Part shown: positions 56,790 to 62,661 of the stretch, in pieces
How the letters are laid out: every line of letters begins with the position of its first letter
How positions within the stretch are numbered: the stretch's first letter is position 1
Assembly (NCBI GenBank): GCA_021806045.1
Contig: JAJZDI010000002.1
Coordinates: 62,001 to 126,000, forward strand
Length of the DNA stretch: 64,000 nucleotides
Source of the DNA: Actinomycetes bacterium
GTDB taxonomy: Bacteria > Actinomycetota > Acidimicrobiia > Acidimicrobiales > RAAP-2
Reading direction: 5' to 3'
The notes under the pieces: model-generated
Seen by the model: the letters and a program-made list of their open reading frames with translations, nothing else
Database searches by the model: none
Told to the model about the DNA's origin: nothing
Translations under genes and position numbers: made by a program

Positions 56790-57539
56790 ATGAGCGTCGA
56801 CCCCACCAGCGACGTGCACGTGCGCGCCGTCGGGGACCAGGCACACGACGATGCGGAGCGGTCGGGCGGCGGGTGGCGGTGGTTCCTCGAATGGGTGGCC
56901 ATCCTGGTCATCGCCGTTGTCATCGCCGTCGTGCTGCGGCTGTTCGTCGTCCAGACGTTCTACATCCCCTCGGGCTCGATGCTGCCGACGCTCCAGATCG
57001 GCGATCGGATCCTCGTCAACAAGCTGAGCTACCGCATCCACGGGATCCACCGGGGCGACATCGTGGTCTTCACCCGCCCGCCGTTGGAGCCGCCCCAGTA
57101 CCAGGACCTGGTGAAGCGGGTCATCGGCCTGCCCGGCGAGACCATCCAGGCCGTCGGCGGGCGCATCACCATCGACGGCAAGCCGCTGGCCGAGCCGTGG
57201 CTGACCCCGGCGATGCAGCACAGCACGTACCCGACCCCGGACGGGCGGCCCTTCGACCTGGCCCAGCCGTTCACCATCCCGGCCGGCGAGATCTTCGTCA
57301 TGGGGGACAACCGGACCGACTCGGCGGACAGCCGGACGTTCGGGCCCATCCCCGAATCGACGATCGTGGGGAAGGTCGACCTCATCATCTGGCCCCCGTC
57401 CGGAGCCACCATCGCGTGGGCGGCGGGGATCGTGGCCGGCATCGTCGTGATCGCCGTCCTGTGGGCGTTCTTCGGCTCGTCAGCCGCCCGCAGGGCCCGG
57501 CGCCAGGGGCGGGCGCCGCCCCCTGCGAGCGCCGCCTGA
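56790..57539 (+). CDS. lepB: Signal peptidase I
   Basis: 249-residue membrane serine protease removing Sec/Tat signal peptides. A first membrane helix at ~27-50, catalytic S63 in YIPSGSMLPTLQIGDRI, catalytic K109 in LVKRVIGLPGETI, and GDNRTDSADSRTFGP. A second hydrophobic helix at the C-terminus (AAGIVAGIVVIAVLWAFFG) is beyond the standard fold and may re-anchor the protein. It stands between pafA and the tat genes, so protein export genes are grouped. Confidence 0.94.
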   Translation: MSVDPTSDVHVRAVGDQAHDDAERSGGGWRWFLEWVAILVIAVVIAVVLRLFVVQTFYIPSGSMLPTLQIGDRILVNKLSYRIHGIHRGDIVVFTRPPLEPPQYQDLVKRVIGLPGETIQAVGGRITIDGKPLAEPWLTPAMQHSTYPTPDGRPFDLAQPFTIPAGEIFVMGDNRTDSADSRTFGPIPESTIVGKVDLIIWPPSGATIAWAAGIVAGIVVIAVLWAFFGSSAARRARRQGRAPPPASAA

Positions 57540-57571
57540 CCGGGGGGACCGGCGGGAGCGGCGGGCGCCGG

Positions 57572-57577
57572 TAGCAT
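57572..57577 (+). promoter_or_regulatory. -10 element for tatB (leaderless)
   Basis: TAGCAT, 7 nt upstream of GTG 57585. Confidence 0.55.
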
Positions 57578-57584
57578 CTCGATC

Positions 57585-58082
57585 GTGCCGTTCCTCAGCC
57601 CGGCCAAGCTCCTGGTGATCCTGGTGGTGGCCCTCATCGTCCTCGGACCGGAGAAGCTCCCGCAGTTGGCCCGGCAATTGGGCGCCCTGTGGGGGGACTT
57701 CCGGGCGTTCCGCGACCGCCTGGAGAGCCAGGTGCGCGACACGTTCCCCGATCTCCCGTCGACCGACCGGATCACCCAGGCGGTGCGGTCGCCCATCACC
57801 TTCCTCGACGGGCTGGCGGACACCCACCAGGCGAACGCCGGTGGCGCCGGCATGCCGTCATCCGTGGACACCGGCCGCTCCGAAGCCCTCGTCGATGGGA
57901 CGGATCCTGCCAGTGGCGACAGTGCCGGCGGCGCCGGTGCGAACGGTGCCGGTACGGGCACCCCGGTCCCGGACCGTCGGGCCGTCGGCAGCGCCCGGGG
58001 CGGGCGACCGGGGACCGAGCGTGCCGTGCACACGCCGCTGCCGCCATGGAGCGACGCACTCGGCGACCCGGGCATGAATTGA
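57585..58082 (+). CDS. tatB: Twin-arginine translocase subunit TatB (TatA/B family)
   Basis: 165 residues: a membrane helix (LLVILVVALIVLGPEKLP) with the TatB-style GPEKLP hinge, an amphipathic helix (LPQLARQLGALWGDFRAF), and a long Gly/Ala/Pro-rich tail. TatB forms the Tat receptor with TatC. In mycobacteria the gene beside tatC is called tatA; the Glu-Lys-Leu-Pro hinge favours TatB here. Confidence 0.85.
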   Translation: MPFLSPAKLLVILVVALIVLGPEKLPQLARQLGALWGDFRAFRDRLESQVRDTFPDLPSTDRITQAVRSPITFLDGLADTHQANAGGAGMPSSVDTGRSEALVDGTDPASGDSAGGAGANGAGTGTPVPDRRAVGSARGGRPGTERAVHTPLPPWSDALGDPGMN

Positions 58083-58119
58083 CGGCGGGAGCGATGGGAC
58101 CCGACGGTCAGGGGCGACC

Positions 58120-58869
58120 GTGGCCACGATGATCCGGCGGCGGAAGGCAGCCCGCCCCGACCCCGACGTGATGACCCTGGCCGAGCACCTCCGGGAGCTG
58201 CGCCGCCGGGTGGTGGTGTGCGCCCTCGTGTTCGTGGTGACGGCGACGGTCGCGTTCGTGATCTACCCGTCGATCCTCGACTTCTTGAAGGAGCCCTACT
58301 GCCAGGCCAGTCACGGGCACTGCAGCCTGTACGTCACCGGGCCGCTCGACGGGCTGTCCATCCGGGTGAAGGTCGCCGCCTACGGCGGGCTGTTCCTGGC
58401 CGCGCCGGTGCTCCTGTGGGAGTTCTGGCGGTTCGTCACGCCCGGCCTCAAGCCCACGGAGAAGCGCTATGCCGTGCCGTTCGTCGCGGCATCGATCGTG
58501 CTGTTCTCGTTCGGGTGCGTCGTCGCCTACATCACGTTCCCCCACGCACTGTCCTTCCTCGGCAGCGTGGGGGGGCCGGGCCTGCGCCAGATCTACGATC
58601 CGGTCAAGTACCTCAACCTGGTCATGCTCCTCATGGCCGTGTTCGGCATCGCGTTCGAGTTCCCGGTGATCCTCGTATCGCTGGAGGCAGCCGGTATCGT
58701 GACGTGGCGGCAGCTGTCGTCGTGGCGGCGGTGGGCGATCATCCTGATCGTGGTGGCGGCCGGCGTGTTCACGCCGAGCTCGGACCCGTTCTCGATGCTG
58801 GCGCTCGCCGTTCCCCTCTACGTCTTCTACGAGCTGTCGATCCTCATCGGTTGGCTGTTGAAGCGGTGA
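58120..58869 (+). CDS. tatC: Twin-arginine translocase subunit TatC
   Basis: 249-residue, six-helix core of the Tat receptor. MTLAEHLRELRRRVVVC, EFWRFVTPGLKPTEKRYA and GIAFEFPVILV are the family signatures, and TPSSDPFSMLALAVPLYVFYE the final ones. GTG 58120 or ATG 58129 could be the start. The stop overlaps the helicase GTG. The tatB-tatC-helicase order matches mycobacteria. Confidence 0.94.
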   Translation: MATMIRRRKAARPDPDVMTLAEHLRELRRRVVVCALVFVVTATVAFVIYPSILDFLKEPYCQASHGHCSLYVTGPLDGLSIRVKVAAYGGLFLAAPVLLWEFWRFVTPGLKPTEKRYAVPFVAASIVLFSFGCVVAYITFPHALSFLGSVGGPGLRQIYDPVKYLNLVMLLMAVFGIAFEFPVILVSLEAAGIVTWRQLSSWRRWAIILIVVAAGVFTPSSDPFSMLALAVPLYVFYELSILIGWLLKR

Positions 58870-60896
58870 CGGGCGGGAACACGCTGCCGTCGGTGCGTGC
58901 CGAATTCGTCGCCTCCCACCCCTTCGACCTCGACCCGTTCCAGGTGGCCGCCATGGATGCCCTCGATGCCGGGCGCTCCGTGCTGGTGTCGGCCCCCACC
59001 GGGTCGGGCAAGACGGTGGTGGCCGACTACGCGGTGGCCCGCGCCCTGGCAGAGGGCGGCACGGCCGTCTACACGGCGCCCATCAAGGCCCTGTCGAACC
59101 AGAAGCACGGCGAGCTGAGCAGGCGGTTCGGCCCGGCCCGGGTGGGCCTCCTCACCGGCGACGTCTCCCACCTGCCCCACGCGCCGGTGGTGGTCATGAC
59201 CACCGAGGTGCTGCGGAACATGCTCTTCGCCGGCTCCGGAGTGCTGGACCGCCTGTCCGTGGTCGTCCTCGACGAGGTCCACTACCTCCAGGATCCCTAC
59301 CGCGGTCCCGTGTGGGAGGAGATCCTCGTCGTGGCGCCACCCGAGGTGACGTTCGTGTGCCTGTCGGCCACGGTGCACAACAGCGCCGACTTCGGGGCGT
59401 GGATCGCGTCCGTGCGGGGACCGACCGAGGTGGTGGTGGAGGCCCGCCGTCCCGTCGTCCTCGACCACCTGGTGGCGGTGGGGGAGCGCGGGCGGGACGG
59501 GGTCCGCCTGCTGCCCCTGCTGCGTGGCCCGGCGCCGCACCCCGACGCGCTGGCGCTCGACCGGCGGTCGCGAGGGGCACGGCGGTGGCGGGTGCCGCGG
59601 CGTTCCGAACTGGCCGAGCGCCTGGCTGCCGAGGACCTTCTGCCCGCCATCACCTTCATCTTCAGCCGGGCAGCGTGCGACGACGCCGCCCGGCAGTGCG
59701 TCGAGGACGGGATCCGCTTCACCGACGAGGACGAGCGCCGGGCCATCCGGGAGATCGTCGAGGAGAGCGTGGCACCTCTCGACGACGACGATCTGGCCAC
59801 TTTGGGCTACGGGACGTGGGCCCACGCACTGGAGATGGGCATCGCACCCCACCATGCCGGCCTGGTCCCCCCGTTCCGCCGGGCGGCGGAGCGGTGCTTC
59901 GAGGCGGGCCTGCTGCGGCTGGTGTTCGCCACCGAGACGCTGGCCCTCGGGATCAACATGCCGGCCCGGACGGTGGTGATCGAACGGTTCGCCAAGTTCC
60001 GGGGTGCCGAGCGCAGCCCCCTCCATGCCGGCGAGTACCAACAGCTCACCGGACGGGCCGGCCGGCGCGGCATCGACGCCGAGGGGACGGCCGTGGTGGC
60101 CTGGTCGCCGGGCACCAGCATGGCCACCGTCGCCAGGGTGGCCGCCGCCGACCCACCCGACCTGCGGTCGGCCTTCCAGCCCACCTACAACCTGGCCGTG
60201 AACCTGGTGCGGCGGGCGGGACGCCACGAGGCCCACCGCCTGCTGGCGTCGTCCTACGGCCAGTGGCAGGCGTCCGCCGGGTCGGTGTCCCTCCCGGTCC
60301 GCCTGGACCGCCGGCTGGCCGTGCTGGCCGGGCGCGGGTACGTGGACGGCTGGCGCCTCACCGCGGCGGGGGAGCGGCTGGCCGGCCTGTACCACGAGTG
60401 CGATCTCCTGGTGGCCGAGGCCATCGCCCACGGGCTCATCGACGGGCTGGCGCCGCCCCAGGTCGCCGCGGTGGTCTCCGCCGTGACCTACGAGGCGCGA
60501 GACACGGGCGAGCGGGCCCCGGTCCGGGACGCCCTCGTCCGGGACCGGCTGGCCGCGCTGGACGCTCTGGCATCGGACCTGCGGGCGGAGGAGCGACGGG
60601 TGGGGATCCCCCGTACCAGGCGTCCCGACGGCGGCCTGGCCCGGGCCATGGCAACCTGGGCCGGTGGGGCGTCGCTCGCCACCGCCCTCACCCATGCCGA
60701 CACCTCGCCCGGCGATTTCGTCCGCAACGCCCGCCAGCTCGCCGACCTCCTACGCCAGCTCGCCCTCGTCGCACCCGATCCGGCGACGGCGTCCACGTGC
60801 GCGGCCGCCGGGCGCAAGATCGTCCGGGGTGTCGTGGCCGCCGGGCTCGATGTGGTGGCGGACGAGACCGCAGGGGCGGACGAGACCGCAGGGTAG
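58866..60896 (+). CDS. helY: DEAD/DEAH-box helicase, Ski2/Mtr4 type (HelY)
   Basis: 676-residue superfamily 2 RNA helicase. Walker A SAPTGSGKTVVADYA, DEVH box VVVLDEVHYLQDP, motif III LSATVHN, APHHAGLVPPFR and motif VI QLTGRAGRRGID are intact, with a helical DSHCT-like C-part. It is shorter than mycobacterial HelY (about 900 residues). The C-terminus ends in an 18-bp tandem repeat coding (ADETAG)2. The GTG overlaps the tatC stop. Confidence 0.92.
   Translation: MTGGNTLPSVRAEFVASHPFDLDPFQVAAMDALDAGRSVLVSAPTGSGKTVVADYAVARALAEGGTAVYTAPIKALSNQKHGELSRRFGPARVGLLTGDVSHLPHAPVVVMTTEVLRNMLFAGSGVLDRLSVVVLDEVHYLQDPYRGPVWEEILVVAPPEVTFVCLSATVHNSADFGAWIASVRGPTEVVVEARRPVVLDHLVAVGERGRDGVRLLPLLRGPAPHPDALALDRRSRGARRWRVPRRSELAERLAAEDLLPAITFIFSRAACDDAARQCVEDGIRFTDEDERRAIREIVEESVAPLDDDDLATLGYGTWAHALEMGIAPHHAGLVPPFRRAAERCFEAGLLRLVFATETLALGINMPARTVVIERFAKFRGAERSPLHAGEYQQLTGRAGRRGIDAEGTAVVAWSPGTSMATVARVAAADPPDLRSAFQPTYNLAVNLVRRAGRHEAHRLLASSYGQWQASAGSVSLPVRLDRRLAVLAGRGYVDGWRLTAAGERLAGLYHECDLLVAEAIAHGLIDGLAPPQVAAVVSAVTYEARDTGERAPVRDALVRDRLAALDALASDLRAEERRVGIPRTRRPDGGLARAMATWAGGASLATALTHADTSPGDFVRNARQLADLLRQLALVAPDPATASTCAAAGRKIVRGVVAAGLDVVADETAGADETAG
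60858..60893 (+). repeat. 18-bp perfect tandem duplication at the helY 3' end
   Basis: GCGGACGAGACCGCAGGG occurs twice head to tail (60858-60875, 60876-60893), immediately before the stop codon. In frame; a recent slippage duplication is likely. Confidence 0.9.
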
Positions 60897-60979
60897 GAGG
60901 GGCCCGCAGGGGCGGGGGACGGGCCCGGGTAGGAGCCCGACCGACGCGGAGGCCCGGCACCGGCCGGGGTCCGCCACTG

Positions 60980-61002
60980 ACGACCACCGGCGGTCGTAGT
61001 GT
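60980..61002 (+). promoter_or_regulatory. Palindrome and -10 box of the ThyX-like gene
   Basis: An 18-nt near-palindrome (60980-60997, ACGACC...GGTCGT, one mismatched pair) overlaps the first base of TAGTGT (60997-61002), 9 nt before ATG 61012. A repressor bound here would block the promoter. Confidence 0.5.
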
Positions 61003-61011
61003 TGCCGGGGC

Positions 61012-62661
61012 ATGTTCCCCTACGCAGTCGAGCGCTTCACGGACGAGGAGTCCGACGTCCTCCGGCGGTACGTCACGAACCTGGACCAGCCGGTATTCGC
61101 CCTGGTCAACCTGCCAGAGGTGGTCAAAGGTGCGCTCTTCGCCCGCTACTCCCGATCGCCGAAGAGCCTGCGGCGGTTGTTCCTCGACGAATTCGTCGGC
61201 GAGCTCGACGTCCGGGGCGACGCCGGGGTCGACGCCACCATGGGCCTGGCGCGTGCCGAGCAGCTCTACGAACGGGTCTTCGGGGAGTACGGCGACGATT
61301 CGGTGGCCCAGTTGGGCGGTGTGCACCTGGCCTGCGAGCAGGCGTCGAACCTGCTCACCAAGGTGCTGGAGTGGGGCAGGCTCATGTCGTACCTGGAGCA
61401 GTCCACCCGCTACATCGCCTACGACGCCCGCCTGTCGACGGGCCACTACCGCTACTACCGCGACCCGGCCATCCTCGACTCGGCCCACGGCGCCCGGTAC
61501 GTGGGCGAGATGGACCGGGTTTTCGACACCTACGGGGAGCTCCTGGCCGCCACGCAGGCGCACGTGGCCGCCCGCTTCCCCCGCCAGCCGGGCGACTCGG
61601 ACTTCGTGCACCGCCAGGCCGTCCGGGCCAAGGCGCTCGATGCGCTCCGGGGCCTGCTCCCGGCAGCCTCGCTGTCGAACGTCGGGATCTACGGTACAGG
61701 CCAGGGCTACGAGCACCTCCTCCTGCGCATGCGGGGCCACCCCCTCCCCGAGGCCCGGCGCTACGCGGAGATGATGCTGGACGAGCTCCGCAAGGTCATC
61801 CCGTCGTTCCTCCAGCGAGTGGACCGGCCCGACCGTGGCGGGCGGTGGACGGACTACCTGTCCACCGCCGCGTCCGCCACCGAGCGGGTGGTGGCACGGC
61901 TCTTCCCCGACCTGGTGGCGCCGGAGGACGGCCCCGTCGCCGGACCGGGGGGCGCACCGTCAGTCGAGCTCGTCGATTTCGACCCCGAGGGCGAGGACAA
62001 GGTGCTGGCCGCCATCTGCTTCCCCGAGGTGGCGGTGCCCGACGCGGGGCTGCTCGACCGGGTGAGGCGCCTGGGGGCCGAGGACCGCCGTGCCCTGCTC
62101 GCCGCCTACGTGGGGGAGCGGGAGAACCGCCGGCACCGGCCAGGACGGGCCTTCGAGCGGACCGGCTACCGGTTCGACGTGGTCACCGACTACGGGGCGT
62201 TCCGTGACCTGCAGCGCCACCGCCTCCTCACCATCGAGTGGCAGCCCCTCTCGCCGGCGCTCGGTTACGACGTCCCCGACCTGGTCGCCGAAGCCGGGGT
62301 GGGGGACGCCTACGCCGCCTCCATGGACCGGTCACGGACCCTCTACGACGATCTGGTTGACGAGTTCCCCGACAGTGCCGGCTACGCCGTCGCTCTCGGC
62401 TTCCGCATCCGCTACGCCATGCAGATGAACGCCCGCGAGGCCATGCACGTCTGCGAGCTCCGCTCCAGCCCCCAGGGGCACCCCTCTTACCGGTGGGTCG
62501 CCCAGGAGATGCACCGGCTGATCGCCGAGCGCGCCGGCCACCGGCTGGTGGCCGAGGCCATGTCGCACGTCGACCGCGGTGCGGTCGGCCTCGAGCGGCT
62601 GGAGTCGGAGCGGCGTGCCGAAGCGAGGCGTCCGCGAGGCTCCGAGACGGCGCACGCCTGA
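61012..62661 (+). CDS. Double-domain ThyX-like protein (FAD-dependent thymidylate synthase family)
   Basis: 549 residues, more than twice the usual ThyX length (about 220-250), apparently two ThyX-like domains. The N-half has MSYLEQSTRYIAYD, matching the S-x3-QS-x-RY half of the ThyX motif, but the preceding RHR appears as WGR. The C-half has LQRHRLLTIEWQPLSP, keeping RHR but not the S-x-RY part. Both halves end in an LR-x(n)-ER/EIR-like helix. It could be an active ThyX variant, a flavoprotein with another substrate, or a regulator. A leaderless promoter precedes it. Confidence 0.75.
   Translation: MFPYAVERFTDEESDVLRRYVTNLDQPVFALVNLPEVVKGALFARYSRSPKSLRRLFLDEFVGELDVRGDAGVDATMGLARAEQLYERVFGEYGDDSVAQLGGVHLACEQASNLLTKVLEWGRLMSYLEQSTRYIAYDARLSTGHYRYYRDPAILDSAHGARYVGEMDRVFDTYGELLAATQAHVAARFPRQPGDSDFVHRQAVRAKALDALRGLLPAASLSNVGIYGTGQGYEHLLLRMRGHPLPEARRYAEMMLDELRKVIPSFLQRVDRPDRGGRWTDYLSTAASATERVVARLFPDLVAPEDGPVAGPGGAPSVELVDFDPEGEDKVLAAICFPEVAVPDAGLLDRVRRLGAEDRRALLAAYVGERENRRHRPGRAFERTGYRFDVVTDYGAFRDLQRHRLLTIEWQPLSPALGYDVPDLVAEAGVGDAYAASMDRSRTLYDDLVDEFPDSAGYAVALGFRIRYAMQMNAREAMHVCELRSSPQGHPSYRWVAQEMHRLIAERAGHRLVAEAMSHVDRGAVGLERLESERRAEARRPRGSETAHA

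Follow-up and report, generated by a model that had tools for sequence, protein, structure and literature searches.

A 549-amino-acid protein from an Actinomycetes bacterium raises the question of whether two ThyX-like domains, each lacking a different part of the catalytic motif, can together form one thymidylate synthase. Its gene lies in the 64,000-nucleotide stretch of contig JAJZDI010000002.1 that was analysed here (hereafter 'the window'). The ORF starts with ATG, remains open over 549 codons with no internal stops, and is preceded by an in-frame TAG located 12 bases 5' of the start codon (Table 1). A first-pass annotation, made from the DNA letters and their translations, described the product as a tandem ThyX-like protein, and profile comparisons bear this out. 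The Pfam Thy1 model (PF02511) matches the protein in two stretches with a total of 115.8 bits, which passes the gathering cut-off of 24.8, and no match to PF00303 (Thymidylat_synt, ThyA) was found in the protein. Each half, aligned independently by hhalign, matches canonical ThyX, with a probability of 97.1 and an E-value of 6.4e-11 for the N-half, and a probability of 98.1 and an E-value of 7.5e-14 for the C-half. Direct comparison of the N-half and C-half profiles yields only 7% probability, and the argument that the halves share an ancestor therefore depends on the match of each to canonical ThyX. A phmmer search of the PDB with the single tandem protein gave no match, and a profile search of the PDB found ThyX weakly, mostly via the C-half. 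Judged from these profile matches, the ORF is made up of two diverged ThyX (Thy1) domains.

Table 1. Coordinates of the tandem gene, its domains, key residues and upstream elements. Positions are those of the window; Tm, T. maritima ThyX; Mtb, M. tuberculosis ThyX.
Feature	Position	Strand	Evidence
Tandem two-domain ThyX-like gene, 549 aa	61012..62661	+	PF02511 in two stretches
N-half, residues 1-305, predicted ThyX-like domain with dUMP-side residues	61012..61926	+	hhalign to canonical ThyX
S97 = Tm T55 / Mtb S71, putative FAD contact from subunit B, N-half	61300..61302	+	134/134
W121-G122-R123, degenerate RHR (Tm R78/H79/R80 place), N-half	61372..61380	+	RHR in 0/134 relatives
E129-Q-S131-T-R133-Y134 = Tm E86/S88/R90/Y91, N-half	61396..61413	+	E/S/R/Y in 134/134
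R213 = Tm R147, putative dUMP side, N-half	61648..61650	+	134/134
C-half, residues 306-549, predicted ThyX-like domain with FAD/RHR-side residues	61927..62658	+	hhalign and model versus T. maritima ThyX
R402-H403-R404 = Tm R78/H79/R80 (FAD, dUMP), C-half	62215..62223	+	134/134
R475 = Tm R165 (FAD contact), C-half	62434..62436	+	134/134
R484 = Tm R174 (activates dUMP N3), C-half	62461..62463	+	134/134
GGTCCGC, conserved -35-like element	60967..60973	+	upstream conservation in relatives
TAGTGT, conserved -10-like element, 15 bases before ATG	60997..61002	+	TAnnnT in relatives

Superposition of each half on ThyX, which the first-pass annotation had suggested as a check, succeeded for the C-half and gave no match for the N-half, whose model is of low confidence. 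The full-length AlphaFold model has a mean pLDDT of 73.7, and residues 311-525 are mostly confident. The C-half model superposes on T. maritima ThyX with a Z-score of 15.6 and an rmsd of 2.6-2.8 Å over 195-196 residues, other folds score far below, and its Foldseek match to ThyX has an E-value of 2.7e-6. As modelled, the C-half clearly has the fold of canonical ThyX (T. maritima TM0449, PDB 1o26; M. tuberculosis ThyX, 3gwc). The N-half modelled alone reaches a pLDDT of 62.7, values around its motif fall to 30-50 in the full model, and a fold search from this low-confidence model returned no ThyX match. This low confidence probably arises because only close relatives were present in the input alignment. 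The profile alignment supports homology of the N-half to ThyX.

The catalytic motif is divided between the two halves. The N-half reads W121-G-R123-LM-S126-Y-L-E129-Q-S131-T-R133-Y134, with WGR at the place of RHR and with S-x3-QS-x-RY retained, whereas the C-half reads L-Q-R402-H403-R404 followed by L-L-T-I-E-W-Q, without S-x-R. This is as the first-pass annotation had read the two halves, and realignment with hhalign does not restore the motif in either of them. In the hhalign alignment, the five C-half residues matching Tm 88-92 (SGRYS) are deleted (numbering follows T. maritima ThyX, with the ruler sequence checked against PDB 1kq4). Contiguous RHR-x(7)-S-x-R within one domain is thus absent, with S-x-R-Y present only in the N-half and RHR only in the C-half. 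The NCBIfam thyX equivalog model TIGR02170 scores the protein at 41.9 bits and tandem relatives at 70.8 and 60.8 bits, all below the cut-off of 87.9. Since both the equivalog cut-off and the contiguous motif fail, we regard the tandem protein as a ThyX variant rather than a plain member, and ThyX detection that relies on this cut-off or on contiguous RHR...SxR misses it.

An alignment of 134 full-length tandem proteins, mostly from Acidimicrobiia but drawn from across the phylum, indicates that this split is not due to chance. All 134 carry the E, S, R and Y residues in the N-half and RHR in the C-half, and the N-half triplet at the RHR place is WGR, RGR, RPR, WSR or WHR, never RHR. The C-halves of these proteins lack the S-x-R loop, and their place of Tm R147 is variable (G457 here; Q, S, P, A or G in relatives). 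When the two halves are summed, the tandem protein holds the same catalytic residues as canonical ThyX, namely R78, H79, R80 and R174 in the C-half and E86, S88, R90, Y91, R147 and the T55-type Ser in the N-half. R147 we take, by established annotation, to belong to the dUMP side (subunit C). The N-half position matching R174 is assigned with less certainty than the rest of this residue map: an ungapped reading places M (106 sequences) or L (28) there, with M240 in the window's protein, and hhalign moves the region by one residue such that R239 pairs with R174 (R in 124, H in 7 and K in 3).

Crystal structures reveal that one canonical ThyX site is built from three subunits, wherein subunit A gives RHR and R199 (Mtb) = R174 (Tm), subunit B gives S71 = T55 and R190 = R165, and subunit C gives S105 = S88, R107 = R90 and Y108 = Y91 to dUMP and as a lid (PMC6514825). 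S88/Q89 of one monomer are located opposite R182 of another monomer (PMC3498832). The methylene-transfer step involves S88, R90 and Y91, and R174 activates N3 of dUMP (PMC8316439). The residues kept in the tandem protein match this published division, with the entire subunit A set in the C-half and the entire subunit C set in the N-half. The subunit B set is mostly in the N-half, where the T55-type Ser (S97) is invariant throughout and its GxxS motif is retained in phage and Bacillus tandems. Two other subunit B residues, H53 and R165, follow no single rule. All 134 Actinomycetota tandems have Asp95 at the H53 place and Gln231 at the R165 place of the N-half, and carry the Arg (R475) in the C-half instead, where N473-A-R475 aligns with Tm N163-A-R165. 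Unlike these, the Bacillus proteins and phage Tunturi_5 have both H53 and R165 in the N-half. An initial idea that all subunit B residues reside in the C-half was dropped because Bacillus and phage proteins carry three of them (T55-type Ser, H53 and R165) in the N-half.

One rival explanation holds that one half alone makes complete homomeric sites and that the other is a structural or regulatory passenger. Both domains do belong to the ThyX superfamily, and enzymes with passenger copies are known in other families. However, neither half holds both residue sets in any of the 134 tandems or in the distant relatives, and both halves are strongly conserved (mean pairwise identity of 63% for the N-half and 55% for the C-half), at different catalytic positions, which makes a passenger half highly improbable. 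The division of residues and their invariance instead provide strong evidence, at the level of sequence, that selection maintains both partial sites for a single common function.

We therefore consider it very likely that the tandem protein is a flavin-dependent thymidylate synthase in which two ThyX domains, fused and diverged since ancient times, have lost complementary residues and together form one composite site. The published division among subunits supports such a composite site, which the first-pass annotation had proposed as one possibility, at a pseudo-dimer interface. The C-half would act as subunit A, with RHR and R174 holding FAD and activating dUMP. The N-half would act as subunit C, with E86, S88, R90, Y91 and R147 holding dUMP and shaping the reactive site, and would additionally contribute the T55-type Ser, a subunit B residue. 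A pair of tandem chains would assemble into a pseudo-tetramer in which only two of the four active sites work, since each of the others would have one side without RHR and the opposite side without the S-x-R loop. Binding of FAD and dUMP, catalysis, dimeric assembly and the presence of two sites per dimer are all probable. In comparison, canonical ThyX is a homotetramer of one domain of ~220-250 amino acids, with the whole motif in each chain and four identical sites, whereas the tandem protein has two diverged fused domains, a split motif, and at most two of four sites that could be complete. Thermus thermophilus Thy1 (PDB 6j61) also has a ThyX core, is longer than usual and carries an extra C-terminal domain, but its chain of only 270 amino acids leaves no room for a second ThyX domain.

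The distribution of thymidylate synthases among genomes agrees with this role. In the window's genome, which is 97.5% complete, searches found no other Thy1 match above the cut-off and no ThyA (PF00303), dihydrofolate reductase (DHFR, PF00186) or thymidine kinase (PF00265), and thus neither thyA nor a normal thyX, for which the first-pass annotation had advised looking. Among 149 genomes of the class, 120 have tandem-type Thy1 (nearly all with two Thy1 matches, a single ORF not being confirmed for each), 14 have canonical ThyX and 15 are without Thy1. Eleven of these 15 have ThyA, and the other four are 85-89% complete. A tandem together with full ThyA occurs in two genomes (G105 and G009, the ThyA being split in the latter). 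A profile of 17 tandems was then used to survey 296 evenly sampled genomes of the phylum, of which 95 have the tandem protein, 121 canonical ThyX and 43 ThyA; tandem and canonical ThyX never occur together, and tandem and ThyA do so once. Fisher p-values for this mutual exclusion are tiny but are inflated by the relatedness of the genomes, and therefore switching within families is the better argument. For example, in family f78 a tandem genus (G388) stands beside a genus with canonical ThyX (G248) and another with ThyA (G300), and the synthase also switches inside families f55, f72, f79 and f22. The tandem gene takes the place of both ThyA and canonical ThyX in genomes, just as canonical ThyX replaces ThyA.

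The best explanation for these findings is that the tandem protein is the sole thymidylate synthase of the window's genome and would supply all newly made dTMP there. No DHFR would be needed for recycling, because ThyX-type synthases return tetrahydrofolate (PMC1971073; PMC9931769). Its absence from 116 of the 120 tandem genomes is as expected on this basis, and genomes with ThyA usually carry DHFR (9/13), often adjoining thyA. The absence of DHFR carries less weight, since PF00186 is missing from the majority of these genomes whichever synthase is present.

These surveys bear on two further rivals. The first-pass annotation had offered another function as the alternative to a composite site; the composite site is now clearly favoured by the match to the published subunit division, by its invariance in very distant relatives, and by the replacement of ThyA and canonical ThyX by this gene. 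One version of this alternative, that the protein makes a product other than dTMP, as a methylase of UMP or modified pyrimidines like Streptomyces cacaoi PolB or through some other flavin-dependent transfer, is improbable. PolB (a ThyX-fold UMP/dUMP methylase; 4p5a/4p5b) is among the structural matches of the C-half, and thymidylate synthases also occur in pathways for nucleoside antibiotics and modified phage nucleotides (PMC9931769). Yet no second recognisable thymidylate synthase is present in genomes with the tandem, individual families switch between this gene and ThyA or canonical ThyX, and, unlike genes of secondary metabolism, the tandem gene is near-universal in the class and has a conserved chromosomal setting, with a DSHCT/DEAD helicase gene upstream in the same direction at 69 of 80 loci. 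It would be more surprising still if the protein were a catalytically dead ThyX paralogue retained as a regulator that binds nucleotides or flavins. Neither half does have the intact contiguous motif, and the entry title of 3ge9 describes an atypical C. glutamicum ThyX as not required for thymidylate synthesis, but what one half has lost is precisely what the other keeps, invariant, and no other synthase is present to do the work.

The tandem profile finds relatives throughout the phylum, consistent with the two-domain architecture for which an HMM search had been recommended, and others occur beyond it. Metagenome assemblies of Acidimicrobiales/Acidimicrobiia provide the nearest named relatives (65-91% identity), which makes that class the most likely source of the window, and NCBI names several relatives 'FAD-dependent thymidylate synthase'. 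One protein with this name, WP_009276148 of Parabacteroides distasonis (539 amino acids), belongs to another phylum, is 44% identical over its full length, has the same split, and is encoded ~3 kb upstream of a dihydrofolate reductase gene. Plasmid and phage collections yielded distant tandems from Miltoncostaea and Euzebya (both left out of the alignment), from ~200 kb plasmids of Bacillus and Paenibacillus (528-572 amino acids; that of Paenibacillus rhizovicinus also appears in IMG/VR as a viral contig), from phages, and from two further viral contigs. The phage proteins, from Microcystis phage Ma-LMM01 (gp020 'thymidylate synthase', PHROG_36506), Tunturi_5 and Vibrio phage vB_VmeM-Yong MS32, have 461-518 amino acids, are 22-29% identical mutually and to the window's protein, and exhibit the same split of S-x-R-Y/R147 versus RHR/R174. 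The division also holds in the Bacillus and Paenibacillus plasmid proteins. Eight divergent tandems (22-29% identity to the first aligned member) have 26 invariant columns, which include E86, S88, R90, Y91, R147 and the T55-type Ser of the N-half and R78, H79, R80 and R174 of the C-half. One genome (G186, family f51) has two tandem copies.

The open literature that was searched, subscription journals lying outside it, holds no description of the split site or of a tandem or fused ThyX. On balance we favour the broader view that these proteins form a thymidylate synthase class that is ancient, widespread and undescribed, in which two complementary degenerate ThyX domains give each polypeptide of a pseudo-heterotetramer one composite site, and which serves as sole synthase in large parts of Actinomycetota and is also present in Parabacteroides, Bacillota plasmids and large phages. 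If so, the thymidylate synthase that had been missing from most of a bacterial class can be assigned. An essential enzyme that began as a symmetric homotetramer would have become an obligate fused pseudo-heteromer through duplication, fusion and complementary loss, and the sequence would reveal the logic of the intermediate steps. With the FAD and dUMP sides in separate domains, either could be mutated without touching the other, which is impossible in a homotetramer. Such a protein would also suggest a half-of-sites architecture by design, which bears on long-standing questions of thymidylate synthase cooperativity.

The region upstream of the gene was also evaluated. The first-pass annotation had noted a palindromic, operator-like site and thought the gene to be regulated. 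The palindrome ACGACCACCGGCGGTCGT is present at 60980-60997, but ~0.6 inverted repeats of this quality are expected per 75 bp in this GC-rich window, and such repeats precede the gene at 7 of 44 related loci (shuffled mean 3.7, maximum 9). Being neither above chance nor conserved in relatives, the operator was rejected. Relatives do share two elements, namely TAnnnT, which begins 14-17 bases before the ATG (41/44 loci, against 1.6 expected from shuffles), and, ~28 bases further upstream, GTCC(C/G)C. This conserved pair resembles a promoter near the start codon, and suggests that the transcript is leaderless or near-leaderless. Genes for a signal peptidase, TatA, TatC and a DSHCT helicase lie upstream in the same direction (56790-60896), and it is the helicase gene that adjoins the tandem gene at 69 of 80 loci.

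Several other thymidylate synthase arrangements were observed in these surveys. Four genomes of f33/g66 (G080, G122, G127 and G148) have ThyA and no PF00186 DHFR, and another dihydrofolate reductase is therefore expected in them. In families f45, f56, f58 and f62, genomes without full-length ThyA have frames of 220-300 amino acids that match PF00303 weakly (27-57 bits) and represent a putative divergent ThyA-like family. Six genomes (G195, G185, G157, G215, G289 and G398) encode circularly permuted ThyX-like proteins of ~300 amino acids (loci L175-L179 and L187). In the two that were checked (L175, a member of PHROG_85, and L176), canonical profile positions 63-195 come first and 20-62 last. 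Such a protein may be the only thymidylate synthase of G157, G195, G215 and G185, which show no tandem, canonical ThyX or ThyA. Finally, one genome has a 563-amino-acid ThyX open frame (G393:C1:3664056-3665600; L172, L182) whose matches to profile positions 2-79 and 78-190 lie ~900 bases apart, and this interruption, exactly at the RHR motif, looks like an intein.
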